Below are positions 3,259-51,490 of a stretch of 64,000 bases of DNA, one piece after another. A program made the position numbers and the translations under genes. The notes under the pieces are model-generated. The model was not told where the DNA came from and did no database searches. It saw only the letters and a program-made list of their open reading frames with translations. The stretch spans positions 23,185,198-23,249,197 of the forward strand of contig NC_056003.1 in the NCBI RefSeq assembly GCF_018446385.1. Direction: 5' to 3'. Every line of letters begins with the position of its first letter. Within the stretch, counting starts at the first letter, position 1. The stretch is from Zingiber officinale. Its lineage: Eukaryota; Streptophyta; Magnoliopsida; Zingiberales; Zingiberaceae.

Positions 3259-4199
3259 ACAAAGTATGGAGGGACTACATCCATACCCGAATATCCGATT
3301 AAATAATTTATATATATATATATATAGCAAGGTATAGAGGGACTACATCCATACCCAGGGGTGGATCCAGCAGGGGGCGACATCAGCGATCGATATCCGA
3401 TCATTTAATAAGTATAAGGATGAATATATGATCCCCAATGGGTATGAAGATGGAGAATATGAAATCTAACTCATTACTATCCCTATTTATCAACCCAACG
3501 TTCTTAAGTTAACCATTCATTAAAAAAAATTATTCGTTAATTTATCGAAATTAGAACTTAATTCTTTTTTTTTTTTAAATAATCTAGGTATCTAACTGTA
3601 GAAATCGATTAATCTTGAAGATGACTCATCCGTATTAAAAAAAATTTCACTCATCATTAGAGTAAATTAGAAATCGCTTACATAGGCCTATCTACTTCAT
3701 TGTTAAATGTAGGTACTGTATTTCCCAGCTGCCAAAACTCTTGTACGTTTATACCTTAATTACGTTATTGATATACACATATGGCATCATTAGAAGAATT
3801 ATTAGAGCAATAGTAAAATTTTAGCATTTAATTTTTAAGAAAGAGACATATATAAAAAGGAAAAAACAAAAAAATTTAGCATGTTTGTTTAATATTTTTA
3901 ACTATAAATTAAAATCAATGAAAAAATAAATACAATAAATGTTCGTGTTATTTATTACCATGAGATTTAATTTCTATGGCTCTTAAAATTCTAGAATTTA
4001 TACTTTATAATTCTCAACTCAAGGCTTAGCCAGTTTTATATGTTCTTACTATTAAAAAATTTACCTATACTTTCCCATCATAATTTCAATTTTACATTAA
4101 CTCCTTGTATTTTAAAATTCTATTTCCATTTTCTAACCAAATATAATGAACATTAATTTACCTAATTATTCTTATATTTTTTAGGTAAAAAAAATTAAA
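3259..4199. other. AT-rich intergenic DNA
   Basis: No gene is seen. A 25-30 bp segment (GGGACTACATCCATACCC) occurs twice, at about 3270-3290 and 3338-3358, on either side of a short TA microsatellite at 3309-3327. The rest is AT-rich sequence with no recognised element. Confidence 0.6.
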
Positions 4200-30500: not shown

Positions 30501-32501
30501 TCATGTCAAACTCATAGGAAAATTAAGTTCCCTACTCCACTCTTTTTTTTTGAAAAAAAAAACTTTTTCTCCATTTGAACTTTCTTTTCGCTCTCTCTTC
30601 TATCCCTTCCATCATTCCTTTAAGTTCCCATAAATTTGTTATTGCCATAAATAAATTTGTTGATCCTATAGAATTTGACTCATTTTATCATCAAACAAAG
30701 GATTCAAAAATAAATCAGATTGATATTTCAACCAAAAATAAAAAATGGTATGTGAAACCTTCTATTTTTTTTCTCAACTTCTATTCCTACCACTTAGCAT
30801 GTATCTCAAAGGTTTTCTTTTCTACAACTGCATCTTTAATATGTTGGAATAGTTATTCAATTCCTCGCAAATTTTATGGAATAACTATTTATAACTTTTG
30901 ATAGTAATATGAACATGAAATACTAATTTTTTGCAGAATTCTTTCTCAATCATTTTTTACTATTATCATATCAAGCATAAATACTTCTTCAATACATCAG
31001 ACTAAAAAAGATGTTTACTTTGACTATATTCTTCTGTATTATATTCCTCAAAGAATAATCATTTTATTTCTTATTACCAAACATTTTGTGAATATCACAA
31101 AATATGAAGGGAAAGAATGCTGTAAACATAAATAAACTATGCACAAATGAGTTATTTATAGTTTAGACAGATCCAAATTGACATACCAAATGCGCAAGCA
31201 TTACGGAAATGCAAGTGGTAGAGTGCCATTACCTTCCATGGCCACCAATACTTGAGCAGTAAAGATGGTGCAGCCGAGTGGAGTATATAACTCACCCATT
31301 CTTCGATAAGATCAACTTGTCCATTCTCTAGTGGTGCCCAACACACTATGTAGAATCTGCACTTATGAAGGTTTGTTTATAATCCATAAAGAAAAGGAAA
31401 AAAAAACAAGGCTGTACGATGGATCATTATAAAACTATATAAAATATTAATCATGTTTTATCTTTATTGATCATGGTTTAGATCATGTATCATAATGTCT
31501 AATATTCGTCAAACATATGTGGTAGGAATAAATAATCAAGGTTGATAAAATGATGCATGATGTTACATCATGGATGATGTATATTTGTCGTAGTAAAAAC
31601 TAAAATATTTGATTGGCCACATATAACAATAAGAATGATAATGATGCAAACTTTTTTCAATAAGTAGAATTGTTAAGAAAATTTGACTTGGTACAGCACT
31701 GCATCAAGGAATCTATTGTTGAACATAGCCATCTTTGAAGGAGACTAAAGAAAATTCTAGTCATACCATAGCCTTTCCAAGTTAGCCTTCCTAGGCAATA
31801 GAAAATACCAATTTTCAACTTCATAATCAAGCCATCTTCTAGTTGATAGTTTATTTGTTTATTTATCAACGACGTTTTTATGATGCATTAGCTAGTCATC
31901 CATTTACTACAGGTGCTAACTAGTTTATTTAACAAAAAGCAATGTAGGGCCTGCAAGAGATGCATTCCAGGGGCAAAAGATGCACTACGCATAAAGGAAA
32001 GGAGAAAAAGAATGGGATAAAAGGAAACAAAAACTGCGGATCCAAAAAAAACAAACATATTCTAATCTAAAGGATTTTCAGTATTTGTCTTGCATTGTTT
32101 TATTAATTTTTCGAGTACTGAAACCAATCCCACCATCACTATCACCAACTTTATCACTCTAGAAGTTGATATTTAAAGCTTTTCTTCCCCATCAAACTTT
32201 TTCTTTCCATTTGGGCATGTGGGAGAAGAAGTCAATGGGGGTTGCTCCCACATCATGTTCACGTAAGGATGACATGGAAAAGTGATAGCCATGGAAACAA
32301 TTATTTAATCCCTTCAAATATTTTAGTAAGACTTTGAATATTTTGCTTTTTGAGCACTCATTCTAATCCACCAGATGTCAAAAGAATTTTCTTGTGGGCA
32401 AAGGAAAACTCAAATTTAAATTCTCTCATCCACTTCATTGTCTTGTCTAAAAACTACAAAAATAGGCATCTATTTAGGAAAACATTCGTCTGCTCCAACA
32501 A
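30501..32501. other. AT-rich intergenic DNA upstream of the pirin gene
   Basis: No gene model could be supported. Minus-strand open stretches at 31152-31346 and 31657-31869 have a somewhat protein-like composition but no family I recognise, and I could not join them by splice sites. They may be remnants of an old element or gene. Confidence 0.4.
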
Positions 32502-32509
32502 TATAAATC
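32502..32509 (+). promoter_or_regulatory. Candidate upstream TATA box of the pirin gene
   Basis: TATAAATC lies 47 bp before the upstream in-frame ATG at 32549. If used, transcription would begin just before that ATG and the protein would have a 56-residue N-terminal extension. Confidence 0.3.
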
Positions 32510-32589
32510 AGCCAAAAAGTCTTAGCTAAAGAGCCCCTACAACTCCATTTGATCATGATGATGAGAATGATGAGGTCTTGTTGCTCCAC

Positions 32590-32597
32590 TATAAATA
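32590..32597 (+). promoter_or_regulatory. Candidate downstream TATA box of the pirin gene
   Basis: TATAAATA lies 127 bp before the conserved start at 32717 and downstream of the ATG at 32549. A transcript starting about 30 bp after it can only use the 32717 start. Confidence 0.4.
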
Positions 32598-32716
32598 ACG
32601 GTATTCTATTAAGATCCTCACCAATCAAACAAGCCTCCAACATAGTTTGTTTCCCTCCTCTCTTTTCTCATCCTAAAGACAAGTACTGGTTCATCAGAAG
32701 CCAGCACAAGAGTTCC

Positions 32717-34199
32717 ATGGGAGACAGTGAAACCCAAGGCTTTCAGAATCCTAGATATGTGGTCAAGAAGGTACTTGCCAGGCCGCAACACGAAGGTGAT
32801 GGAGCCATTGTTAGGAGGAGCATTGGAAGGTGATTTCCTATCAATCTCTATGTTCTAAATCCCTTATTCAACAGAGGATTTAGCTTAACATGATGCTCGT
32901 TCGGAAATTGATCTTGTGCAGGGGAGAACTAAGAAACTTGGATCCATTTCTGATGCTGGATGAGTTTTCTGGTAAGTATTTAACCTCTCTTCCCTAATAT
33001 AACTCCATTGAATGGTACTGGTGGCAGCTAATTCATTCTTTTCCTTATCAGTATCGGCTCCAGCTGGGTTTCCTGATCATCCTCATAGAGGTTTCCTTTT
33101 TGTTGATTCAGTTCCCAAATTTGTCCTAAATTCATTACTTTAAGCTTCTCAATCTATCCATTCAATGACAGGTTTTGAGACCGTCACTTATATGCTGGAG
33201 GTAATAAATTAATTTGCTAGTAGGAATGAGATAGAAATCAGATGAAATTTTAGCTAAGACGAAGTATAACATGGTACATAAATCATTGAATTCAGGGAGC
33301 CTTCACTCACCAAGATTTTGCAGGGCATAAGGGCACCATCAGAGCGGGAGATCTGCAGGTACTTTTGATGACCTTCACTCCTCAAGCTTTACGCTATCAA
33401 TTGAATTAGAATTAGATTCATCGGTTCACCTCCATACTACATTAATTTCTTCAGTGGATGACTGCTGGTAAAGGAATTATTCACTCAGAAATGCCTGCTG
33501 CGCCTGGAGAGAACAAAGGGTTGCAGCTCTGGATCAATCTCTCCTCCAAGGACAAAATGTAATTGCCAAAATTTTATCTTTTTAACAATCACAAATAATG
33601 TTCCTAATGGAATCGATCAAACCGATACCATGAGAAATATCGATTTTTTTTTCCTTCCAAACTTTGAGAATTTCACAATGAAAACCTAATTTTTGCGCCT
33701 ATTCGTTCCAAGGATGGAGCCGAGATACCAAGAGCTACAAAGCAAAGACATAAGCAAGGTGGAAAGGGATGGCGTTGCCGTCCGCATCATCGCCGGCGAA
33801 TCCTTCGGCGTCCAGTCACCCGTCTACACCCAGACTCCAACAATGTACCTAGACTTCACCTTAAGCCCCGGATCCCAAGTTCATCAGCGGATCCCGGAGT
33901 CATGGAACGCCTTCGTCTACATCGTGGACGGCGAGGGCGTGTTCGGGGACCCGAGCGCCGAGGCGGCGGCGAGCCACCACGCGCTGGTGCTGAGCGCCGG
34001 CGATGGGGTAGAGGTGTGGAACAGGGCGGCCAGGCCGCTGAGGTTCGTACTCATCGGCGGGCAGCCGCTGAAGGAGCCGGTGGTGCAGTACGGGCCGTTC
34101 GTGATGAACACGCAGGCGCAGATCCAGCAGGCGATTGAAGACTACAACTACTGCAAGAACGGGTTCGAGAAGGGGAAGCACTGGGCCTCGCAGCAGTGA
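32717..34199 (+). CDS. PRN: Pirin-like protein
   Basis: Model: join(32717..32829, 32922..32971, 33052..33090, 33172..33200, 33296..33358, 33455..33558, 33713..34199), 294 aa, all introns GT/AG with matching phases. It is a bicupin of the pirin family: nuclear/cytosolic iron-binding proteins with roles in transcription and, for some, quercetin oxidation. Arabidopsis PRN1 interacts with the G-protein alpha subunit. The N-terminal cupin has the four iron ligands at the expected spacing: His64 and His66 in PDHPHRGFETVTYMLEG, and His108 and Glu110 in GIIHSEMP. RNLDPFLMLDEF and LQLWINLSSKDKM are further family signatures. The length is typical. An in-frame ATG at 32549 would add 56 residues that look like a targeting peptide. 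Exon 7 is much richer in GC than the others. Confidence 0.92.
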
Positions 34200-35450
34200 A
34201 GCCGGAAGGCCCAAATAAATCCATGACTGGCCCAAATTGAACTCTCATCTCCATTTGATAGTTTCTAGAAGATTCGGATGGAGATGGTAGATATATATAT
34301 GAATTTTCTGTTATTTTATTTTCTTTCAAGAACCAATAATATTGAATTATATATAAAAAGATAGTGATATTTTTCGTTTGTGCAATCGTTCATCTCGCGC
34401 AATAGGGACTCAGTAGCTTGGTTGGGCTCGGCCGGCCGTCTGAACTATTCTTGAACTGCTAGGCGGAAAAATAGTTTAATATTTTTTAACTAAATTTTAT
34501 TAGAAATATTTAATTTTATTAATTAACAAAGTTAAAATTTGTCAATCTAACTGGCCAATACAATCTACCCTACGATCATCTATTAAGAGATAAATCGAAA
34601 AATTATAGTTGATCACTACGAAAAAAATATTTTTCTTGACTTTGATGAGATTCAACACTTTACCCATTATAACAATATCTATTCTATATTAGCCAACTCA
34701 ACCATGTCCCGGGGACAACATTGAATTTTATTAGTAAAATTTAAAAGGACAATTTCATATATTGTCAATGATTATTTATACAATTAGAAGTAGTGACCAA
34801 CTAGGCCGAATAACAATAACTTTATCTTATGTCAAACCTCATTATTAGTAAAAAAAATTTAAAAAACATTTTATATTAACTAATTTAACAACAAGTAGTA
34901 AATTATTATAATACTATTAATATATATTTTAATTATATATATATATATATTTTTTAAATTATCAATAATTTTAACTTCGAGTAAAGAAAGACTCGACACA
35001 ACAGTAAATTATTATGTGACCTAGAGGAAATAGATTCAAGTACTAGATATAGTCACTATATAATAGTCTCTTCCTCAAAATCACGCATTGACTGGGCTTA
35101 ACTCTTACAATGTTTTATCTAGATAAGAAAATAAAAAAAAATTAAATAGAAGTTAGTAACTAGAAATAGAATTTTCTAAAAATTTTATTGCAATTATCAT
35201 TAAATTTTTATTTATTCAAATTTAAAAATTAATATTAATGTAATTGTAATTAAGTAAAAAATTTATTTTATATTTTATAGAGTAATAAAATAATAATTTT
35301 ATTTTATGAAGTAATAATTAAGTAATATAGAGTCTTCTGACCTTTTTTTTGATACACTCCAAGATGTTCTATTTTTACATAAAAATGTATTCGCTTAAGG
35401 ACTTTAGAAGATATTAATACTAAAAAAGAGGATTGTTTACAAGGAACCAC
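34200..35450. other. AT-rich 3' flank of the pirin gene
   Basis: Apart from a decayed SINE at about 34986-35100, this is AT-rich DNA with a short TA tract at about 34931-34950 and no genes. Confidence 0.45.
34986..35100 (+). mobile_element. Decayed Au-like SINE (tentative)
   Basis: AGACTCGACACAACAGTAAA, then GTGACCTAGAGG and GATTCAAGT, and later CTCTTCCTCAAAAT, line up in order with the Au SINE 5' half. Many substitutions; no target-site duplication could be recognised. Confidence 0.4.
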
Positions 35451-35453
35451 TAA

Positions 35454-35770
35454 GGGTATTCACAGTTGTAAACCTTTTAAAAAGGTTTATGCTCTGTCAC
35501 ATCATTGTGATATCAAAAGTTAAAAACCTTACTTCTTTTAAAAAATCATTCTCTATTATCATAAAACCTCTCTCTTTTAAAAACTACACTTCTTTTAAAA
35601 TTCTCTCTCTATCCTCTCACCACTATTTTTTTTATAAACTCGATCCCAAGATTTTGATATAGGTTTATAAAAAAAAACCATAAACCCCACATATGTAGTG
35701 AGGTAGTGATTTATATTGAGAGATTTATAGTATACATTGTATGCTATAAACCTCTCACTGCAGATGCCCC
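35454..35770. mobile_element. Tourist-like (PIF/Harbinger) MITE
   Basis: A 317-bp non-coding segment flanked by TAA on both sides (35451-35453 and 35771-35773), as expected for PIF/Harbinger target sites. The ends form imperfect terminal inverted repeats of about 20-25 bp: GGGTATTCACAGTTGTAAACC on the left, and GGGGCATCTGCAGTGAGAGG reading inward from the right. No transposase. Confidence 0.6.
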
Positions 35771-35807
35771 TAATAGAAATTTGTATGATATATATATATA
35801 GAATATA

Positions 35808-36047
35808 GAATTATGATATGCTGCATAACTTTTTCATACGCTCCTTGCGCAACTGCCGCTGTGGCAATCCGAATCAGCATTTTTATTTTTTTATCATCTT
35901 TTTTATTTTTTATTTTTTACCATCTTTTTTTAGTTTTTTTCCCAAACAGCCTCTTCTCGTTTTCTTTCCTCTCTCGACGCAGCCGCCGCCATCCTTCTGG
36001 GTTGCCACCATCCTTCGGCGCTGCTTGCCCAGAAGCGACTCAGTGCC
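35808..36047 (+). repeat. Left terminal inverted repeat of MULE 1
   Basis: Matches the reverse complement of about 41872-42087. The first about 73 bp (through CCGAATCAGCA) are nearly identical at all four MULE ends in the window. Further in are T-rich blocks and a GC-rich segment (CTCTCGACGCAGCCGCCGCC). The left copy has a small internal duplication (CATCCTTCTGGGTTGCCACC) that the right one lacks. Confidence 0.85.
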
Positions 36048-36707
36048 AGACGCTGACCCACCCGCTAGACGCCTCTCGCCGCCTTCGTTGTTGCCTGCCG
36101 AGTGAGACCCCGCGCCAGACACCGACCCTCATCGTTACTGGGACTACCCCAGCCGCTAGACACCCCTCTCCGCAAACTAGGTTTTCAACGCCATCCTTCT
36201 TCGTTGCTGTCGCCGTCCTGGAGCAACTAGCGTACTAAGATTTCCTTAAGACGCCGTCCAACTCTGTCCCTGTGAGATCTTTCAAATTAAGGTACGAGAA
36301 AAGCTTGCTCATGGAAATTGGAATGAACACTTTATTGTAACCTATATATTTATATGTACACTTTATTTTAATCTAACGAAACAGCATGCTCATGTAAATT
36401 GGAATGGACCAAGAATAACAACAATACGACGAATTTTGTAGAGAATTTAGTAACGAAACAACGGCTATTGTTTGTGTTTTGAGGTATTACTAACTTATAC
36501 TAATGATTGACACTGTTTACTAGAATGAACAATAAGTCAATTATAACTATTTTGTTTCTTTGCTCATATTTTCCTTGAGACAACAGATTACTTATGTTTC
36601 ATACAATATAAATCATGAAGTATGTCAACCATTTTTGGGGTTCTGTAATTTGGATCATTCAGATAACAACCATAATCTCATCTATGGTGAACTTGAAGTT
36701 TGCCTAC

Positions 36708-36874
36708 CTCATCAAAGGTGAAACACCATCCTCTTTGTTAGCAATAATTTCATCCATTTGTGTTCCATCAATTCGTGGTTGGCTTAGTTGGAGGAGAATG
36801 CACATAAATTCTTTGTCGGTGACATTAAAACTGAAGCCTCTATCGATGTCATCCCCTTCCCTGGTTTCATAAAC
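36708..36874 (-). pseudogene. Exon-like segment antisense in MULE 1 (possible captured exon)
   Basis: On the minus strand, a 167-nt segment starts right after a good acceptor (CAATTTTAG) and ends at a donor (GAG followed by GTAGGC). It is open throughout in one frame and has protein-like composition (for example FSFNVTDKEFMCILLQLSQ). I do not recognise the family. It could be an exon of a host gene captured by the element, a remnant of a second element-encoded gene, or chance. No neighbouring exon was found on the same strand. Confidence 0.35.
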
Positions 36875-37415
36875 CTAAAATTGAAGGAATCATCCTTGTA
36901 CAAAGTTTGTAAATACTGTGTGCAAATGCACACGAGTGAAATAGAATAAGTTTAGTTTCTTCTATAGTTCCATATTTTCTTGGCAAATCAACTGTCCAAA
37001 AAAATTTATCTCACAAAAAGAATCATTTTGTAAACAGTGAAATGAAGGCGATTTCTAGTAAAATGATTCATGAGATATAATCATAGTTGTTGATATATAA
37101 AGTGATTTCTTTGACTTTATCTGATTAGTAAAATGCTTCATGAGATATAATCATAGTAAAATGTTGATATATGGTCTGACTAGTTCAATCCAATCACAGT
37201 CTTTTTTTATATTATTTTTTCCAAGAGTCTAGTGCAAGTACTAAAATTATCACCACTTCTCACTTTTTCAAAGATCATGTTTTAGTACTAAAACGATACA
37301 TTTTGATGTCACATTATTGTCACATGAGAATATTGTTTTATGCCTATTTGATTTAGTATACTTTTGTGGCTATACTGTTATATGCAGAGCTTCACTTCAT
37401 CTGGCATTTCCAGTA

Positions 37416-39845
37416 ATGGAAGAAAATGATGGTGAGGCCCAAATATATATTCCCCAAGTTGCAGATGATCGAAAGCCAAAAATTGGAATGAAATTCTCAT
37501 CATTAGAGGAGGCATTTTCATTCTATAACCAATATGCACGAGAAGCCGGATTTAGTGCTAGGCTAAATAATAGCAAGAAAAATAAGATGACAAATGAAGT
37601 TGTCTGGAAACAATTTGTATGTTTTAAAGAAGGGCATACAGATCAAATGCGGTGGAATAATCATGCAAAAGGTGATCAACAGACAAGGAAAAGAGCACGT
37701 GGCGAAGTTAGAACTGGTTGTCAGTCAAAGATTTCACTTGTCAAGGAACAAACTGGATCTAATTGGGTTGTCAAAAACATCATGGAAAGTCATAATCATC
37801 CACTCTCAACTCCTTCAAAGGTACATTTGCTACGCTCACATCGTAATGTTTCGGTAGCAAAGAAAGCATTGACTCAACAATTTTCAGAGGCCAATGTGCC
37901 AACTTGTCAACAAATGCGATTATTAGAGATAGAGTATGGAGGTCCTGAGAGGGTGGGTTGCACAGAAAGAGATATTAGAAATTTTGAGAAAGAACTAAGG
38001 GATGAACAAAAGGGTATCGATGCTGAAACACTAATTGAGTTATTTGCATCTGAGAAAGAGAAGAATCCAGCTTTTTTCTTTGAATATGAGACTGATTCAG
38101 ATAATAGATTTAGCAGGTGTTTTTGGGCAGATCATGTATCAAGGACGGCATATAATGTATTTGGTGATGTAGTTGTATTTGATACGACATATAACACCAA
38201 CAAATATGGGTTGATTTTTGCACCATTTGTAGGAGTTAACCATCATCATCAGACAATTGTTTTTGGTTGCGGCTTTATAAGTGATGAGAAAACTGAGTCT
38301 TTTGTTTGGCTGCTTAACAAGTTCATAGAAGCAATGTCTAAAGGTGCACCAAATGTGATCATCACTGATCAGGATCCTGCTATGACGAAAGCCATTGCCC
38401 AAGTTTTTCCTCAAACAATGCATCGATATTGTTTATGGCATATACTGAACAAATTCCCAGATAAATTACACCCTTTGACTTTTCGTGACTACTATCAAAG
38501 TATCAAAAATGTCATTGGAAATTCTACAACACCTGATGAATTTGAGAATTCATGGAAAGAGGTTATCAAATGTGCTAACTTAGAGAAAAATGATTGGTTA
38601 TCATTGATGTATGAATTACGACACAAGTGGGTGCCAACATATTTTAGTCATGTATTTTGTGCTGGAATGTCAAGTAGTCAGAGATCTGAAGGCTCACATG
38701 CATTTTTCAAGAGATATGTCTCAAATAAGAATTCATTGATGGATTTTATCACTCGTTTCAATAGGGCACTGAGACATCAAAGACACAATGAGTTAGTTGC
38801 TGACCATATTGATATGAATGAGCATCCCAGAATTAAGACAAACTGGCCAATGGAAACTCAAATGGTTAAGAAGTACACGAAAAAGAAATGGATGGAGTTT
38901 CAAAGTGAAATGACTGAAAGTCATGGTTATTATGTCCAACAAGAATCTATAGGAGTTGAGTCAGTGGTTTACCGTGTGATGAATTTTCAAAATTGTTCTT
39001 CCTCCAAACCAAGGGTCCTCACACATGACAAACAGAGGGACTACATATCTTGTAGCTGTAGGAAATTTGAGTTCGATGGCATTCCATGCAGGCATATGTT
39101 AGCTTTTTTTCGTATCAACCAAGTGTTTCATCTACCTGATAAGTATATACTCAAACGATGGACACGAGATGCAAAGGTTGGAGCAATATATTCATTGGGA
39201 GAGCAAAATTTCATCAATGATCCAGAAAGGATTTTAATGTCAAGACACTCGAGGTTATCCAATAAAGTTTCGATATTAATTGATGATGCATCTTTGACTG
39301 ATGAGGGGACAAACTTCTTGGATGAACAATTTGATTTTATTTACAGCAAAATTCAAGAGATAAATATTAGTAAAAAAATATGCGACAATAGAAGTCAAAG
39401 GAATAAATCCATGGATGAAACTCTTATTATTGATCCACCTTTAGTAAGAACAAAGGGATGTGGGAAGAGATTGAAATCATCAAAGGAGAAGTCAACCTCA
39501 AAGTCCCGGTTATGTCGTGGATGCGGGCATCGAGGTGTGTCACATGACAAGCGCAACTGTCCAATTTTACAGCAAGGGTATGTGTCGATTAATTTTGTAT
39601 TTGTATGATAATTTTATTTGCAAATAAATTCTCTAATACAATTTATAAATATGATGATATGTCTTGTCAGATCAACTATAGATAATCATCATAATAACGA
39701 TAACGATACATATGAAGAAGAATTGGCAGATATCGATGGTAATATCAAAGTTTTATTAAATTATAGTAATTGATTGATTGAGAAATTGAAGTTAATAATT
39801 ATCTTTATTATTACAGGTTCTAACAATATGCACCAGGATGAATGA
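37416..39845 (+). CDS. FAR1/Jittery-type MULE transposase
   Basis: Model: join(37416..39577, 39671..39738, 39817..39845), 2259 nt or 752 aa, phases consistent. Domains in order: FAR1-type zinc-binding DNA-binding region (about 30-130); MULE DDE catalytic domain, with first Asp in VVVFDTTYNTNKYG (about 255), second in VIITDQDPAM (about 315), the CLWHIL helix, and a candidate catalytic Glu in SQRSEGSHAFFKRY (about 424); SWIM zinc finger CSCRKFEFDGIPCRHML (about 546-562); and a C-terminal knuckle CRGCGHRGVSHDKRNC (about 700-715). The start at 37416 directly follows a splice-acceptor-like TATATGCAG and a short leader, so a 5' UTR intron is likely. Without the last two exons the reading frame runs to 39608. 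The same domain order occurs in domesticated FAR1/FHY3 factors, but the terminal repeats show this is an element gene. Confidence 0.88.
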
Positions 39846-41049
39846 AGGTTTTTAAAAACATCAACAAATCACCCTGTAAGTAATTTATCCTACAATTCTA
39901 CTTATGATTGTTAAACTACATAGTTGCTTATGCTTGGCATTTGAGTTGCTTTTATTCTGTATCAAGAAAGTGCTTGGATTATTACGTTTTTCAAAATTAC
40001 TTCACTTAGTGTTTTTCTGCCCTTTTATGTGAAGTCTCCAAGTTTCGAACTCTACTTATTATATAACATGATTGTTATATATATAAAGTTGAATATTATA
40101 TAATTATATGGCGTGTTCATCTCTATTCCACGAACCTCTTAATTGTGATTTTTTTATAAAAAAAAGTCTATTTCGTCTTATTTGTATGAATCATTTAACA
40201 ACTCTCAACAAGCCAGCTTGGTTGACTTTGTTGAATTATTTATATTGTATGGGGCATCTTTTAGTCTATTGAGGATAGAAATATGTTTCTTTTCCAGAAC
40301 ACTCGTTAGGATTATATAACATGATTTCTTTTATAAAACTAATGTTTCATGTTTCTTCTTAACTGTCATTTTATTTCATTTCACAGGAATCAAGATTTGC
40401 ATCTGGGTTGACGATTGCATCAACTTCACTTTCAGTTGTAATATGAAATTCCTTTGTGAACATGTTTGGTGCTTAGATTTGTCACTCAAATATAATAAAA
40501 AGCGACTCATGAATGCTGCGGTTTACATATTTGGACTAAACATTTTCTTCTATAGATGATGCATCGTGCTCTTTCATGTTATTTTTTTGTTGAAGTTTTA
40601 GATGACTTGTCATGCTTCTGAATTATATTTGCATAGTTTAAAAATCAAAGTATTGTTTTAGAAGTATATGAGTGTGATTCAAATTTATTTAGTAAATAAA
40701 TATTGTGTCATCCAAATTTATTCAGTAGATAAATATCAAATAATGTCTGGATATTTAAATCAAATTTATTATATAACGAACAACAATAACAAAAATTGTT
40801 TAAATGATTTACTATTATAATTTTATATGAACATACACCCGATATAATTTTTTTTTTACATAAAAACCATTTCATCGAAGGCTTAGATGAAATCATGTGG
40901 TGTGCTTTAGTGCCACCGATTAGGTCCTCAATTGCATGATTTTGTTGAAAAGTTACATCCTAAGGGTCTCGAGGGGCTCTGCCGAGTTTGTTGATCCAAG
41001 TTACCAAAAAATACATCTTTTTCAATCAATCTACTAAAGATCAGATAGC

Positions 41050-41600
41050 ATTTTCTAGGTTACCACTACTTGTGTACATGTCAACCATAGAATGAAAGAA
41101 TCACCAGCTAGATCATTCTTCAAAATATGAGCATGAACTTGGGATCCACAACCGCTATGTCTCAGGCTAGTGCAGGATTTTAACATACTGATGTATGTAT
41201 AATTGTAAGGAACCATATTCTTTGTTAACATGTGTCTGACAAAACAATGAACTGGCAGGACTCGTCTAACAACCCTGTGCCACTGCTGCCTGAAATCCAA
41301 GTCTCCACAAACTGAATAAGATTTCAGACAGGAGGTAAGAGCAAAAGCGTTCGGCGAGCTCCATCCGTCACCATCTTGTAGAACAATATCAAGGATTCTT
41401 TCGCGCGATCCATACATGCATACGCTGACATGAGGGTCGTCCACGAGACATCATCGCGCTGAGGCATTTCGTCGAACAACGATCGAGCGACTCCCAAGAA
41501 ATCGCATTGTGAATAGAGACGAAGCAATCATTTCCACAGATACGCATCGGCGTCGAATCCGGACCTCATCAAGCGTCCTGTATGGGCTTCCCATGGGTGA
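41050..41600 (-). pseudogene. Captured PPR (PLS-class) gene fragment in MULE 1
   Basis: Minus-strand translation gives pentatricopeptide-repeat blocks in order: RLYSQCDFLGVARSLFDEMP, RDDVSWTTLMSAYA, SPNAFALTSCLKS, then PYNYTYISMLKSCTSLR and SQVHAHILKNDLAGDSF. These are the PLS-type motifs of organelle RNA-editing and processing factors. The frame is broken by small indels and one in-frame stop (TGA after the DAYLWK-like segment), and both ends of the host gene are missing. Orientation is opposite to the transposase. The fragment shows that the MULE copied host gene sequence, as Pack-MULEs do. It is also present, mirrored, in the second element. Confidence 0.85.
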
Positions 41601-41808
41601 GGGATCTACTCGAGGTGAGGGTCGGCGTCTGATGGCGGTGGCGGCGGCAACGTCGATTTGTGAATAGAGACGAAGCAATCATTTCCACAGATACGCATCG
41701 GCGTCGAATCCGGACCTCATCAAGCGTCCTATGAGCTTCCCATGGGTGAGGGATCTACTCGAGGTGAGGGTCGGCGTCTGATGGCGGTGGCGGCGGCAAC
41801 GTCGAGAG
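41509..41808 (-). repeat. 151-bp tandem duplication in the captured segment
   Basis: Two direct copies with a period of 151 bp (GTGAATAGAGACGAAGCAAT at 41509 and again at 41660), nearly identical except for a 2-bp difference. It covers the 5' part of the captured PPR fragment and its GC-rich upstream sequence, and it also occurs in the inverted copy (42372-42671), so it preceded the duplication. Confidence 0.9.
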
Positions 41809-42579
41809 AGGAAAGAAAACCAAAAGACTCGACTTGTGAAAAAAATAAAAAATAATAAAAAAAGATGGCACTGGGTCACTTCTGGGCAAGCAGCGCCGAA
41901 GGATGGCGGCAGCTGCGTCGAGAGAGGAAAGAAAATGAGAAGAGGCTGTTTGGGGAAAAAATTAAAGAAAGATGGTAAAAAATAAAAAATAAAAAAGATG
42001 ATAAAAAAATAAAAATGCTGATTCGGATTGCCACAGCGGCAGTTGCGCAAGGAGCGTATGAAAAAGTTATGCAGCATATCATAATTCTATATATATATAG
42101 AATTATGATATGCTGCATAACTTTTTCATACGCTCCTTGCGCAACTGCCGCTGTGGCAATCCGAATCAGCATTTTTATTTTTTTATCATCTTTTTTATTT
42201 TTTACCATCTTTCTTTAATTTTTTCCCCAAACAGCCTCTTCTCATTTTCTTTCCTCTCTCGACGCAGCTGCCGCCATCCTTCGGCGCTGCTTGCCCAGAA
42301 GTGACCCAGTGCCATCTTTTTTTATTATTTTTTATTTTTTTCACAAGTCGAGTCTTTTGGTTTTCTTTCCTCTCTCGACGTTGCCGCCGCCACCGCCATC
42401 AGACGCCGACCCTCACCTCGAGTAGATCCCTCACCCATGGGAAGCTCATAGGACGCTTGATGAGGTCCGGATTCGACGCCGATGCGTATCTGTGGAAATG
42501 ATTGCTTCGTCTCTATTCACAAATCGACGTTGCCGCCGCCACCGCCATCAGACGCCGACCCTCACCTCGAGTAGATCCC

Positions 42580-43130
42580 TCACCCATGGGAAGCCCATAC
42601 AGGACGCTTGATGAGGTCCGGATTCGACGCCGATGCGTATCTGTGGAAATGATTGCTTCGTCTCTATTCACAATGCGATTTCTTGGGAGTCGCTCGATCG
42701 TTGTTCGACGAAATGCCTCAGCGCGATGATGTCTCGTGGACGACCCTCATGTCAGCGTATGCATGTATGGATCGCGCGAAAGAATCCTTGATATTGTTCT
42801 ACAAGATGGTGACGGATGGAGCTCGCCGAACGCTTTTGCTCTTACCTCCTGTCTGAAATCTTATTCAGTTTGTGGAGACTTGGATTTCAGGCAGCAGTGG
42901 CACAGGGTTGTTAGACGAGTCCTGCCAGTTCATTGTTTTGTCAGACACATGTTAACAAAGAATATGGTTCCTTACAATTATACATACATCAGTATGTTAA
43001 AATCCTGCACTAGCCTGAGACATAGCGGTTGTGGATCCCAAGTTCATGCTCATATTTTGAAGAATGATCTAGCTGGTGATTCTTTCATTCTATGGTTGAC
43101 ATGTACACAAGTAGTGGTAACCTAGAAAAT
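42580..43130 (+). pseudogene. Captured PPR gene fragment, second copy (MULE 2)
   Basis: Mirror copy of the fragment at 41050-41600, with identical conceptual products (SRERILDIVLQDGDG, YTYISMLKSCTSLRHSG). It carries the same frame breaks, so the capture and its decay predate formation of the inverted pair. Confidence 0.85.
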
Positions 43131-44333
43131 GCTATCTGATCTTTAGTAGATTGATTGAAAAAGATGTATTTTTTGGTAACTTGGATCAACAAACTCGGCA
43201 GAGCCCCTCGAGACCCTTAGGATGTAACTTTTCAACAAAATCATGCAATTGAGGACCTAATCGGTGGCACTAAAGCACACCACATGATTTCATCTAAGCC
43301 TTCGATGAAATGGTTTTTATGTAAAAAAAAAATTATATCGGGTGTATGTTCATATAAAATTATAATAGTAAATCATTTAAACAATTTTTGTTATTGTTGT
43401 TCGTTATATAATAAATTTGATTTAAATATCCAGACATTATTTGATATTTATCTACTGAATAAATTTGGATGACACAATATTTATTTACTAAATAAATTTA
43501 ATCACACTCATATACTTCTAAAACAATACTTTGATTTTTAAACTATGCAAATATAATTCAGAAGCATGACAAGTCATCTAAAACTTCAACAAAAAAATAA
43601 CATGAAAGAGCACGATGCATCATCTATAGAAGAAAATGTTTAGTCCAAATATGTAAACCGCAGCATTCATGAGTCGCTTTTTATTATATTTGAGTGACAA
43701 ATCTAAGCACCAAACATGTTCACAAAGGAATTTCATATTACAACTGAAAGTGAAGTTGATGCAATCGTCAACCCAGATGCAAATCTTGATTCCTGTGAAA
43801 TGAAATAAAATGACAGTTAAGAAGAAACATGAAACATTAGTTTTATAAAAGAAATCATGTTATATAATCCTAACGAGTGTTCTGGAAAAGAAACATATTT
43901 CTATCCTCAATAGACTAAAAGATGCCCCATACAATATAAATAATTCAACAAAGTCAACCAAGCTGGCTTGTTGAGAGTTGTTAAATGATTCATACAAATA
44001 AGACGAAATAGACTTTTTTTTATAAAAAAATCACAATTAAGAGGTTCGTGGAATAGAGATGAACACGCCATATAATTATATAATATTCAACTTTATATAT
44101 ATAACAATCATGTTATATAATAAGTAGAGTTCGAAACTTGGAGACTTCACATAAAAGGGCAGAAAAACACTAAGTGAAGTAATTTTGAAAAACGTAATAA
44201 TCCAAGCACTTTCTTGATACAGAATAAAAGCAACTCAAATGCCAAGCATAAGCAACTATGTAGTTTAACAATCATAAGTAGAATTGTAGGATAAATTACT
44301 TACAGGGTGATTTGTTGATGTTTTTAAAAACCT

Positions 44334-45258
44334 TCATTCATCCTGGTGCATATTGTTAGAACCTGTAATAATAAAGATAATTATTAACTTCAATTTCTCA
44401 ATCAATCAATTACTATAATTTAATAAAACTTTGATATTACCATCGATATCTGCCAATTCTTCTTCATATGTATCGTTATCGTTATTATGATGATTATCTA
44501 TAGTTGATCTGACAAGACATATCATCATATTTATAAATTGTATTAGAGAATTTATTTGCAAATAAAATTATCATACAAATACAAAATTAATCGACACATA
44601 CCCTTGCTGTAAAATTGGACAGTTGCGCTTGTCATGTGACACACCTCGATGCCCGCATCCACGACATAACCGGGACTTTGAGGTTGACTTCTCCTTTGAT
44701 GATTTCAATCTCTTCCCACATCCCTTTGTTCTTACTAAAGGTGGATCAATAATAAGAGTTTCATCCATGGATTTATTCCTTTGACTTCTATTGTCGCATA
44801 TTTTTTTACTAATATTTATCTCTTGAATTTTGCTGTAAATAAAATCAAATTGTTCATCCAAGAAGTTTGTCCCCTCATCAGTCAAAGATGCATCATCAAT
44901 TAATATCGAAACTTTATTGGATAACCTCGAGTGTCTTGACATTAAAATCCTTTCTGGATCATTGATGAAATTTTGCTCTCCCAATGAATATATTGCTCCA
45001 ACCTTTGCATCTCGTGTCCATCGTTTGAGTATATACTTATCAGGTAGATGAAACACTTGGTTGATACGAAAAAAAGCTAACATATGCCTGCATGGAATGC
45101 CATCGAACTCAAATTTCCTACAGCTACAAGATATGTAGTCCCTCTGTTTGTCATGTGTGAGGACCCTTGGTTTGGAGGAAGAACAATTTTGAAAATTCAT
45201 CACACGGTAAACCACTGACTCAATTCCTATAGATTCTTGTTGGACATGATGACCATGA
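44334..45258 (-). pseudogene. Truncated MULE transposase, C-terminal part (MULE 2)
   Basis: Encodes the SWIM zinc finger, the tail and the C-terminal knuckle of the transposase, identical in sequence to MULE 1 over 214 residues (44571-45215). All of the FAR1-type and DDE domains are deleted. It has no start of its own. Confidence 0.9.
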
Positions 45259-45349
45259 TAAAGATGGTTGAGGAAGAACAGTGCTGATTCGGATTGCCAC
45301 AGCGGCAGTTGCGCAAGGAGCGTATGAAAAAGTTATGCAGCATATCATA

Positions 45350-45383
<34 letters not shown>

Positions 45384-46136: not shown

Positions 46137-49048
46137 TAGACCCGACCCCGGGCCGGGTCTGGCCCGAACCCGAACCCGGCCCAGGCCCGTAACCGGGTCA
46201 ACGGGTCGGTTGCCCGTTGACCCGGTTCGCCGGGTCGAACCAGAACCGGCCCGGCAAGTTGCCGGGCCGGTTCCGGTTCATGGGCTGTAAACCCGGCGAA
46301 CCGCCGGTTAACCGGCGGGTTGAACCGGCGGTTCAGCCGCAAACAAATATATATATATTTTTAAACGGCTTGAACCGCCGGTTAACCGGCGGTTCATAGG
46401 CGTTGGGAGGGTTTTTTGGGTATTTTTTTTCAACGGTTAGGATCATTTGACCGTTTTTTGATCAATGGCTATGATTTAGTGTCTGTTACTATCAAAACTC
46501 TATAACTAGAGAGCTCATTTCATCATTTTTCACACACATCTTCTCTACTCTTAATCTCATTTTCGTATTCTCTAATCTCTGCACGCTTTCGTTTTCAATT
46601 TTCAATTACAATGGAAGGAGGCCGCGGAGGTGCATAATCTCGAGCTCGGAAGGGAAAGCAAATAATGAATCCGCGGGAGGAGGACCCCAACATTCAATCC
46701 ACCGATGATGAGATCGAGCATCTTCCGAATCCGACACATGAAATACAAGGAAGTACTGATGCAATTACTTCTAAGGTTCGGGAACTTCCTCCTCTAAAGT
46801 CTTCTATTTTTACTAAACATTTTGAGAAGGTCACTCTTCCGTCGGGAGAAATGCGTGCAAAATGTAAGCACTGTAATGCTTCCTACAAATTCCAAGCCAG
46901 CGGCGGCTATGGGTCGTTGAAACGACATGTAGAAACGAAGCACCCGACGGAATATGGACTCGACCGTTCTCAAACACAATTATCAAGATTTTCTTCAACT
47001 AGCGGTAGTACCGATTCCGGTTTATTTTTATATTCGGATAATAAATTAAGAGAATCATTAGCTAAATTTATTTCCGTAGAACATCTTTCTTTTAGTTTTG
47101 GATCTAAATGCACATTTGAAGATTTTTGTAAAGAATCTCTTAATCCATGTGCTAAACGTGTTCCTAGAACTACACTTACTCGTACAATTAAAAAATTAGT
47201 AAAACAAGGAAAAAAGAATTTAATTGATGAATTTAGTAAATTAGATAATAAAGTTTCTTTATGTTCCGATATTTGGAGTGATAATTGGCAAACACATTCG
47301 TATATGGGTGTGACTTGCCATTGGATCGATAACTCTTGAAACCTCCAAAAAAGATTATTAGCTTATAGAGTTTTTGATGAATCACATAATGCTCATAATA
47401 TCGCACAATTATTATGTTTAATTTTAGAAGAATATGATTTAACTCATAAAATATTTTCAATATCATTAGATAATGCTAGTTCTAATACCGCTTGTATAGA
47501 TGATCTAAATTTGTTTGTCAACCTATTATTGGAGGTTTATTTTTTCATATTCGTTGTGTATGCCATGTTTTAAATTTATGTGTTCAAGATGGTTTAAAAA
47601 TTTTAGAAAGTTATATTAAACCAATTAGAATTGTAATTTCTTATTTATGGTCTCATCCATCTATAATGAAACAATGGGGTATGTTTTATAAAATTAATGG
47701 AATGAGACCTAAAGAATTTCCACGTGATGTACCAACACGTTGGAATTCAACATACAAATTATTACAAGATTCATTTCAATATAAAAAATTATTATGTTCA
47801 TTTTTTGCACAAAACACTAATACTAATATATATTTATTTTCACAACAATGGAATATTTGTAGTAGTATTTGTGAAATTTTAAAAGTATTTAATGATGCAA
47901 CCGAACAACTTTCCGGTATTTATTATCCCACTGCTCAATTAGTTTTAGAAAAAATTTCTAATATAGTATTAGTTTTAAATGAACATATTAATAATGAATC
48001 TTTATCTCCTTGCATCTTAGCTATGAAAACTGAATGGGAAAAATATTTTTATTTAATTCCTGAAATTTATTTAATTGCATTTGCTTTAGATCCTATATTT
48101 AAATTAGAAGTTTTACAAGAAATGTTAACTTTATATTATGACGCTTTAATTCCAATTAAAGATTCTTCTTCCCCTGATCCAGTTAATATTATATATAATG
48201 TTAGAATTTATTTATATGATATTTATAATCAATATTATGCAAAATATGGAACACAAATTAATATTTCTGAAATTCAACAAACTACTAGTAGTAATTTAAA
48301 ACTTACAAAAGCACAACTCTTATTAAAAGAATGGACAAAAAGTCCACGAGGATCCTCAAGTTCCACACAGGAACTTGAGAATTATTTTACGACTTCTTTT
48401 GATTTTAATGAAGCAGATAGCGAAAACTTCGATATCTTAAAGTGGTGGTCACAGAAGGCTCAAAGCTTTCCCGTTCTCTCCGTGATCGCAAAAGAAATTT
48501 TAGCTTGTCCAGTGTCAACTGTTGCTGTGGAGCAGACGTTCAATGCCGGCGGCAACATATTAGATGAACGACGATCAACTTTGTCTCCTGACTCATTGGA
48601 AGCCCAAGCATTACTGGACGATTGGACCAGAGCGGAGAAAAGAATCCAAGGAATGCAACTTTCAGATGACGAAGTTGAAGATTTTGATACTGAAGGAACA
48701 AATACGACAGGAACAGGGAATGTAAGTGAATGAAAATGTAAAAGGATAAAAATGTAAAAGAACTACGTGGGCTTTAATTCCCCTAAAGGGATACGTAGGC
48801 AACTTAAATAAGTGCAAGCCCTTTTTTCAATAAATTTTAATTTCTAATTTTTAATGTTTAATTTTTAATTTTTAATTTTTTTTAACATATTAATCTTGAA
48901 CCGTGACGAACCGTGAACCGAACCGTGAACCGGCGGTTCTGAACCGTGAACCGTAACCGTCTTGGGCGGTTAAGGTTAAGGGTCGACCTGCCTGGAACCG
49001 TCGAACCGGCGGTTCCGAACCGTCGAACCGTCGGTTCCGAACCGTGGT
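46137..49048 (+). mobile_element. hAT DNA transposon nested in the 5' LTR
   Basis: A 2912-bp element flanked by an exact 8-bp target-site duplication CCAGGAGG (46129-46136 and 49049-49056). Short terminal inverted repeats start TAGACC. Subterminal regions (about 46190-46420 and 48895-49040) are packed with GAACCG / CGGTTC / AACCGGCGG motifs in both orientations, typical of transposase-binding subterminal repeats of hAT elements. It encodes a BED-finger, RICESLEEPER-like transposase with two visible lesions, so it is probably inactive but could have intact relatives. Confidence 0.92.
46665..48733 (+). pseudogene. hAT transposase (BED finger, RICESLEEPER-like), broken
   Basis: The N-terminal BED zinc finger is CKHCNASYKFQASGGYGSLK followed by RHVETKH (about codons 66-92). 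Then come the RNase H-like region (SDIWSDNWQTHSYMGVTCHW, SLDNASSNT) and, from 47666, RDVPTRWNSTYKLL. The hAT C-terminal dimerisation domain is at about 48430-48620 (FDILKWWSQKAQSFPVLS, CPVSTVAVEQTFNAGG, LDDW). An in-frame TGA at 47337-47339 replaces what is normally Trp in the family, and a frameshift lies near 47505. The rest reads through to 48733. The usual length of the family is about 650-700 aa, which this would match. The plant hAT family also gave rise to domesticated DAYSLEEPER genes, but the transposon termini show this is an element copy. Confidence 0.9.
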
Positions 49049-50463
49049 AAGGTCTACCAGGAGGAGGCCGCCGCCAGGTTTAGGTAAGGGGGGGGGGGGC
49101 TGAGTGCGCGTTTTTGGTCCGCGGCCGAGGGGACCTTCTTCCTCCTTCCTCGTCGGCGCCGACGTCGACCGCCTGCCGCTCCTCTCCTCTACCTCCTGTC
49201 CCCCGACCTTCCTTCCAGCGCCGACGCTAGGAGGAAGGGCTGATTTGTGCTTGGACTTTAGGCCGACGCCGTCCAGCCGGCGCTGCTGCCTCAACCTGGT
49301 GCGCCGACGTCTGCACCTTCGACGTCGCTCCTACTGAGCGTTCCCGGCACCGGCCATCTCTGGCTAGCAAGTTTTGCCTCCACCTCCAGCAACATCGTTG
49401 CCTCCTCCGGCGGCCGTCGGCGCCTTCCCCAGCATCCGTCGGCACCTCCCGCCATCGAGGAGCTATGCCTCAGCCTCCAGTAGCGTTGCTTCCGCCTCTG
49501 GTGGTCGCCGACGCCACCTCCAGCGTTCGCCAGCACCTCCGGCGACCGCCATCTCGCCACCTTTGGCGGCCATCGCTGTCGTCATCTCTAGGGATTGCCA
49601 CAGTCGCCTCCCGCGGTCGACCTCGCCGCCTTCAGCGGTAGTCGCCACACGCCGTCATCACCCTCCGGATAGCCGTCGCCTGAGTGCTTATGTTTCGTAC
49701 TATTTATTTGATGCGGCCTGCGAGCCGATAGAGTATTCGGCCTTCGAGGCCATTATTGTATTCCGGCCTTCGTGCCCCTAGTTCGCCCTGCGAACCAATG
49801 CTGTAACTAGACCGCGCGCCGTCTCGCGGATCCATATCACGCCCGGCTTCGAGCCACCGGATCCAGCTACTTAGTTGGTGGACATCTATCCACTCTCCAA
49901 GGTCATGACGACTCGATCCGCATCTCGACCAGCTCACCGATCCATCCGAGGGCGCCTCCCGGGGCCAGGGTACGTCATCGTACTCCTCTTATGTTTATTT
50001 TCTTGTTCTGCTATTATTCAACTGCTTATACATCTGGGGGATCCGCCTCGAGCATCGAGATACCAAGGACCGGGGTAACCCGGTCGTTGGATACAGGTAC
50101 CGTTGACTAGAGGACTTCGGGCGACTTAGTCAACGCAGAAGACAGCTCGCCACCGGGTCATGAGGATGCGGTTAACCATCCAGACACGTCACACCGGCAG
50201 GTCCGTCTTCTCAGCATCCCGACAGGATCAAATTGACATCGTCTGTGGGAACGCACCTGATCTGGACGTGAAGATGGACGACGCCGGAAAATTCTACCAT
50301 CCTCATGATCTCGGTAGGTTTCGATGAATGTGTCATTCTCCTCACTCCACGGGTATTCGAGAGTCGAGGAACTGAACCAGATCCTTTGCTGGTCGGCAGG
50401 TCAGTTTTTGCGTTATCTTTTCTCTTTCAGTTATATGATCTGCCCTAGTTCCTCGATCGAAGA

Positions 50464-50625
50464 CCCCCGTATCGATCGGCCGGGCGTATATTATCCGAGC
50501 CACGGGCTCGATGTCGAAGACCTCGTACCGATCGACCAAGCATATATTATCCGAGCCACGGGCTCGATGTCGAAGACCCCGTGCCGATCGACCGGGCGTA
50601 TATTATCCGAGCGATCGGCCCGGTT
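50464..50625. repeat. About 57-bp tandem repeat, 3 copies, in LTR element interior
   Basis: The unit contains CGGGCGTATATTATCCGAGC, then CACGGGCTCGATGTCGAAGAC. It is one of three consecutive minisatellites in the element's non-coding interior. Confidence 0.75.
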
Positions 50626-50640
50626 TGAGTTATGCTTGAA

Positions 50641-51045
50641 GACCGTCGAGCGGCGACGTTAAACGCCAGAGTCGAGCCGGCGACTATAAATACCCGACTT
50701 GAAAACCGTCGAGCGGCGACGTTAAATGCCAGAGTCGAACCGGCGACTATAAATACCCGGCTTGAAGACCGTCGAGCGGGGACGTTAAACGCTAGAGTCG
50801 AACCGACGACTATAAATACCCGGCTTGAAAACTGTCGAGCGACGACGTTAAACACTAGAGTCGAACCGGCGACTATAAATACCCGGCTTGAAGACCGTGT
50901 AGCGGCGACGTTAAACGCCAGAGTCGAACCGGCGACTATAAATACCTGGTTTGAAGACCGTTGAGTGACGACGTTAAACGCCAGAGTCGAACCGGCGACT
51001 ATAAATACCCGGTCTGAAGACCGTCGAGCGGCGAAGTTAAACCCC
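50641..51045. repeat. 63-bp tandem repeat, 6.5 copies, each with a TATAAATA motif
   Basis: The unit starts GACCGTCGAGCGGCGACGTT and includes GGCGACTATAAATACCCGG. TATAAATA recurs every 63 bp (about 50685, 50748, 50811, 50874, 50937, 51000). Since 63 is divisible by three, frames on both strands stay open (110 and 192 codons), with a 21-residue period. I regard these ORFs as a by-product of the period, not as genes. Confidence 0.9.
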
Positions 51046-51070
51046 CCGCCTTCACAGACCGGTCCGTCGG

Positions 51071-51490
51071 ATATTCTATCTCCCCCGTTCGGGGTCGAGC
51101 TTATCAGAGCATCTATCTCCCCCATTTGGGGTCGAGCTTATCATAACATCTATCTCCCCCGTTCGGGGTCGAGCATATTGGATCTCCTATCTCCCCCGTT
51201 CGGGGTCGAGCGATCGTCGATGTTCGCAAATCAGCACATCAGATTTCCTATTTTTCCCTGGTTGGGATCAAGGCGTCATTGCTAGCCTCGCACCAGCTTA
51301 TCAGACCTGCTATCTCCCCCGTTCGAGGTCGAGCAAACTTCATTCCCCCACTCGGGGTCGAGCGGCCTTCATTGGTCGTGGACCTGCTTATCAGATCTCT
51401 CATTTCTCCCGTTCAGTGTCGGGTGCTTCTCATTGGTCATAGATTAGCTTATAAGAGCATCTTATCTCCCCCGTTCGGGTCGAGCTATCT
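51071..51490. repeat. About 38-bp tandem repeat with CCCCGTTCGGGG palindromes
   Basis: Repeated CTATCTCCCCCGTTCGGGGTCGAGC units, regular at 51071-51215 and degenerate to 51490, each containing a five-base-pair inverted repeat around TT. The downstream tract (51500-51980) breaks down into degenerate CTCG-rich sequence. Confidence 0.8.

Follow-up and report, generated by a model that had tools for sequence, protein, structure and literature searches.

A window of 64,000 nucleotides of the ginger genome (Zingiber officinale, C18:23185198-23249197) carries two MULEs, here called E1 and E2, joined by their right ends and forming a palindrome. Its features, in window positions, are as follows:

35788-35807, no strand: TA-rich tract flanking E1, with GAATATA at its end
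35808-42087, + strand: E1, full-length MULE of 6,280 bp with the tip GAATTATG at both ends (sequence; full-length relative L040 on C11)
35808-36005, + strand: E1 left terminal inverted repeat (TIR), about 198 bp (203-nt inverted pair, 96% alike)
37416-39608, + strand: transposase frame, 730 codons, intact, with FAR1, MULE and SWIM domains
38921-42093, + strand: left arm of the palindrome (inverted-repeat comparison)
41890-42087, - strand: E1 right TIR (inverted pair)
42088-42099, no strand: (TA)6 linker TATATATATATA, 12 nt, with the palindrome centre at 42093/42094
42094-45258, - strand: right arm of the palindrome (inverted-repeat comparison)
42100-45353, - strand: E2, deleted MULE copy of 3,254 bp in the orientation opposite to E1 (sequence)
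44571-45200, - strand: truncated transposase frame of E2, 209 codons from the first ATG, SWIM end only
45259-45281, - strand: 23-nt filler at the E2 deletion breakpoint
45282-45353, - strand: outer TIR remnant of E2, 72 bp, identical to both E1 TIR tips
45354-45383, no strand: (TA)15 microsatellite flanking E2

A first-pass annotation of this DNA had placed and sized both elements correctly (35808-42087, 6,280 bp, and 42100-45353, 3,254 bp, with a 12-nt TA linker), and its picture of two elements joined tail-to-tail through TA, making a giant palindrome with few arm differences, agrees with the (TA)6 found between the two right ends and with the pairwise comparison of the arms, where 3,162 of 3,173 columns are identical. 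The three substitutions (38928, 38931 and 38955) all lie within 35 nt of the outer edge, at the deletion breakpoint; beyond these 35 nt, the arms differ only by a 1-nt gap (40680) and a 7-nt gap (41976-41982), the latter being one unit of a short A-rich tandem repeat, as read from the sequence. The innermost 111+111 bp form a perfect palindrome without spacer, and the length and identity of the arms go far beyond chance expectation. The left arm contains the last 688 nt of the transposase frame, the 3' non-coding part, possibly a captured gene fragment, and the right TIR of E1. As a separate observation, the GAATATA closing the left TA tract (35801-35807) is similar to the start of the TIR tip, and may have been left behind by an element that once occupied this site.

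Regarding the element class, the frame of E1 has Pfam matches to MULE (PF10551, 1e-31), FAR1 (1.1e-19) and SWIM (1.7e-7), and its 730 codons hold no internal stop, bearing out the earlier proposal of a FAR1-type MULE with an intact transposase frame. The long terminal inverted repeats by which MULEs are recognised are present as the 203-nt pair, and the target-site duplication (TSD) of about 9 nt is unreadable at E1 and E2 because the flanks are TA repeats. With an intact transposase frame and both ends, E1 has the sequence characters of an autonomous element. Adjoining its right TIR are two tandem copies of a unit of about 150 bp (41502-41805), the second of which is gapped in the relatives at two sites (5/5 and 4/5). 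The segment 40950-41450, mirrored in E2, resembles by eye a plant PPR gene and has no Pfam match even at E 10. Similar DNA, split into two parts, occurs at C3:1.043-1.044 Mb and C4:1.121-1.122 Mb (88-91%); C193 and C147 have it too (75-91%). These matches are possibly the parent gene or its kin, and the segment itself is possibly a host gene fragment captured by the element, as suggested by sequence similarity.

The family was searched in 3.09 Gb of genome (211 contigs). A 1-kb probe gave 1,215 first-look candidates, 40 of which were scored, at 86-100% identity and including E1 and E2; 13 of the other 38 scored copies were fetched for comparison. Among these 13, only the copy L041 on C20 has a full-length transposase frame (L052 matched in part). 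The nearest copy among those compared, L040 on C11 (C11:7230001-7240000), is full length and 99.6% identical over 6,274 nt, and its transposase frame is broken. By eye, TA-rich tracts adjoin all 14 element ends seen in 8 of the 13 other fetched copies, two further printed stretches being left out of this count, as they are not element ends. The family thus sits in TA microsatellites, the character by which MuTAnT-like elements are told. Its tips read GAATTATG or AATAATG, and the 10 exact tip matches in the genome divide into six of the AATT type (the four E1/E2 ends and the two L040 ends) and four of the AATA type.

The same habit is described for MuTAnT/AutoMuTAnT of Medicago truncatula, a MULE with a Jittery-like transposase that inserts in TA microsatellites, where 10/10 amplified sites were polymorphic and the 9-nt TSD was readable only in a minority because of the TA repeats (PMC4486113). 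The likeness to E1 is one of description, as the TIR tips are GGGG in MuTAnT and GAATTATG or AATAATG here, and a back-to-back pair is unmentioned in the accessible part of that report. Hvu_Abermu of barley also shares with E1 the MULE class, together with a preference for TA-rich sites and recent transposition; it has a 9-bp TSD and differs in having three ORFs, and no palindrome is mentioned in what was available of its description (PMC9168764). Searching the ginger genome by exact pattern, no other back-to-back pair was found; such patterns detect only elements with well-kept tips, of which there are 10 exact matches, so that older pairs may be missed. Moreover, when the 198-bp palindrome centre was used as a probe, only the window covered it in full (20/20 candidates scored). 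By these searches, local jumps of this kind are no habit of the family.

E2 consists of a 72 bp TIR tip, 23 nt of filler and the sequence of E1 from about 38921 to the right end, and compared with E1 it lacks about 3.04 kb between the outer TIR and about codon 502. The second element had been called a deleted copy, and this composition of a TIR remnant, filler and the 3' half of E1 is in accordance. In the E2 frame, the SWIM match is given by Pfam as 44574-45215. The changes at 38928 and 38931 are found in E2 only, compared with E1, L040 and five further copies, and cluster with the filler at the breakpoint, a pattern that fits interrupted repair synthesis. An 11-nt stretch of the filler matches the E1 sequence, and the same was reached by 55 of 1,000 shuffles; being only weakly above chance, this counts against a templated filler. 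E2 was also considered as a member of a dispersed deletion subfamily, which was rejected: out of 40 scored hits from 524 candidates, a single one, the window itself, covered the deletion junction in full. Internal-deletion derivatives of Mutator arise from interrupted gap repair, keeping both ends, losing the middle and bearing filler at the junction. Compared with those, E2 lies inverted beside an intact element.

The 'Zhangliang' ginger genome is a haplotype-resolved Nanopore assembly of 3.09 Gb before scaffolding, with 3.05 Gb in 22 pseudochromosomes (PMC8342452), and a second haplotype-resolved ginger genome was built from PacBio reads (PMC8342499). C17 and C18 form a chromosome pair, as do C11 and C12. 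On the allelic stretch of C17, E1 and E2 are both absent, with a TA tract in their place. Three blocks (88-98%) pair window positions 31982-35800 with this stretch as far as allele position 3788, and 45356-46136 matches it from position 3775 onwards at 92%. The whole 9.55 kb is consequently missing from that allele, as window 35800 corresponds to 3788 and 45356 to 3775. This absence could, in principle, reflect a loss instead of a recent arrival. L040 also seems absent from the partner of its own chromosome, its flank matches on C12 being about 60 bp apart: the left-flank matches end at 8805076 (the last piece weak, at 66%) and the right-flank match starts at 8805136 (90%), with a further right-flank piece 12 kb on and other differences there.

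The empty allele, the proper element ends and the differences between the arms served as an indirect test of the assembly. Fold-back chimeras are known in Nanopore reads, and an inverted chimera of this type, arising in a read or in the assembly, would imitate a palindrome. The ginger assembly that this genome resembles was built from such reads (PMC8342452), and a sequencing error could account for the 1-nt difference between the arms. In a fold-back chimera, however, the mirror image runs on to the last base and there is no separate TIR, whereas here it stops at the filler breakpoint and is followed by a second TIR, a TA tract and the right flank as in the empty allele. In addition, two indels and three substitutions distinguish the arms. 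An artefact is therefore regarded as highly improbable, and the palindrome is very probably a real and young structure.

The relationship between the two elements could be read from the arms. Beyond the breakpoint zone, no substitution separates E1 from E2 in 3,124 compared columns (3,132 E1 positions less 8 in gaps), and at seven substitution sites the two agree with each other where L040 differs. With 0 versus 7 substitutions, the distance between E1 and E2 is smaller than that from either to L040 on C11; if E2 were as old as the L040 split, about seven substitutions would be expected, and the Poisson chance of observing none is about 0.001. When five further copies were taken as outgroups, E1 and E2 shared a state against a unanimous rest at none of 3,015 columns, because the five sites listed vary within the family. 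A T at 40179 is seen only in E1 and E2, as is a T at 41856, where two of the five outgroups (three copies with L040) have bases. The absence of substitutions gives a 95% upper bound of 0.00096 per site over 3,132 positions, the same to two figures with 3,124. Rates of 1.3e-8 or 6.5e-9 substitutions per site and year are used for dating, and they set the upper age at about 37,000-74,000 years. The supposed youth of the palindrome thus holds, in view of zero substitutions in 3,124 columns and an allele that lacks both elements, with the reservation that gene conversion from arm to arm could have made E2 seem younger and closer to E1 than it is.

Such conversion is the core of one other account, where two related elements inserted independently into one TA tract and their arms were equalised later. 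TA tracts are the targets of the family, conversion would explain the 0 substitutions in 3,124 columns, and the lack of any E1+E2 state against a unanimous family is in line with it. On the other hand, the E2 junction occurs nowhere else among the 40 scored hits of the 524 candidates, the AATT-type tips of E1 and E2 recur among the exact matches only in L040, and chance would be unlikely to bring a second element within 12 bp of the first in 3.09 Gb. Two independent arrivals are considered distinctly improbable.

The explanation regarded as probable, albeit with appreciable doubt, is that E1 was copied locally into its own TA flank in the opposite orientation, and that this copy was then shortened by incomplete gap repair. 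From the observed structure, the empty allele, the uniqueness of the junction among the scored hits and the closeness of E1 and E2, we infer the following order of events. E1, a FAR1/Jittery-like MULE targeting TA microsatellites, would have entered one haplotype. As the family prefers TA repeats, the TA flank of E1 is itself a landing site, and a copy of E1 would have jumped a few bases into the tract at its right end, in reverse, probably between sister chromatids after replication. This copy, E2, would then have lost about 3.04 kb, most likely when the gap left by its excision was incompletely repaired, with the 23-nt filler and the two E2-only substitutions beside the breakpoint as traces. 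The 2 x 3.17-kb palindrome would be a by-product of target preference and local transposition. Two insertions are unproven, because TSDs are unreadable in TA repeats.

A single insertion would suffice if a break at the right end of E1 had been followed by fold-back repair, in which the (TA)n 3' end snaps back and primes synthesis along E1. About 3.17 kb would be copied in mirror image before the strand switches to a TIR tip and joins the right flank, without a second transposition. Inverted duplications have been proposed to arise through fold-back priming (PMC3907307, PMC10622511), and here it would account for the exact, spacer-free centre in a self-complementary TA tract, as well as for the filler and substitutions at the presumed switch point. 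Against it stands the outer end of E2, where a clean TA tract adjoins a precise TIR tip. A strand running outward through the left TIR of E1 should have copied the GAATATA of the left flank, which is absent there. A switch to a TIR elsewhere would still be compatible with the data, as both E1 TIRs contain the same 72 bp. Overall, fold-back repair seems unlikely, though it deserves to be taken seriously beside the local copy of E1.

With this structure, the palindrome joins two known kinds, the TA-targeting MULE and the natural inverted transposon pair, and what makes it interesting is that it might silence the family to which it belongs. A sense transcript of E1 running past its tail (42087), or an E2 transcript crossing the centre, would form a hairpin of up to 3.17 kb. 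This hairpin would match E1 as well as related copies and might supply siRNAs for silencing; the arms match E1, the transposase 3' ends of the family and, via the inner TIRs, both ends of a member. By analogy, it is possible that the palindrome silences its family in trans.

Among natural cases of a transposon turned by rearrangement into its own silencer, Mu killer of maize is the best known; its description is attributed to Slotkin et al. (2005). The earlier comparison of the ginger locus with it stands as far as inverted transposase DNA is concerned, with 3.17-kb arms that hold the last 688 nt of the frame, and fails in asserting the same layout: the centre lies here between two element tails, and there inside mudrA with the TIRs outside. 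According to the available portion of the report (PMC3440606), Mu killer is a single MuDR that has lost internal sequence and been duplicated in part; TIRA forms its two outer ends, each half reaches 1.298 kb into mudrA, and the centre is unsequenced. Its arms are the 5' end of the gene, because each half extends into mudrA from TIRA. Both loci share inverted MULE DNA with part of the transposase gene and TIRs, whereas the ginger locus has two elements, a centre at the tails, arms drawn from the 3' part of the gene, and one arm formed by an intact element. Moreover, silencing by Mu killer is demonstrated, while the role of the palindrome is a candidate drawn from sequence. The same report argues for silencing via short antisense transcripts, which were found in silencing plants, with a long hairpin as a possible contributor only (PMC3440606). 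In geometry, PAI1-PAI4 of Arabidopsis appears to be the closer analogy, with tail-to-tail inverted copies whose presence is accompanied by methylation of unlinked homologues, as far as that source describes it; it differs in consisting of host genes, not a transposon (PMC3431836). In the literature searched, mostly titles and abstracts with few subscription journals, no back-to-back MULE palindrome was found, Mu killer being the nearest.

A stronger proposal sees in the palindrome a recently born locus of the Mu killer kind with a novel layout, where the read-through hairpin of an intact master element would start siRNA silencing of the family both in cis and in trans; this is quite improbable. 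If true, the locus could persist in ginger, a sterile and clonally propagated crop (PMC8342452), without facing meiosis. The palindrome bears on how plants first recognise a new active transposon, and it offers a further natural silencer candidate, having the intact source element as one arm and the empty allele as a built-in control, in a family where, of 13 other copies tested, a single one has an intact frame. The preference for TA repeats, making the flank of an element its own target, would provide a simple route to such loci.

Beside the palindrome lie two frames (46665-48733), which by eye resemble a hAT transposase (BED finger and C-terminal part); the surrounding 46137-49092 has no match longer than 100 nt on the allelic stretch of C17. 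Further on, a tandem-repeat region (50452-51125) gives about a dozen matches staggered along the allelic stretch, and its copy number may differ between the haplotypes.
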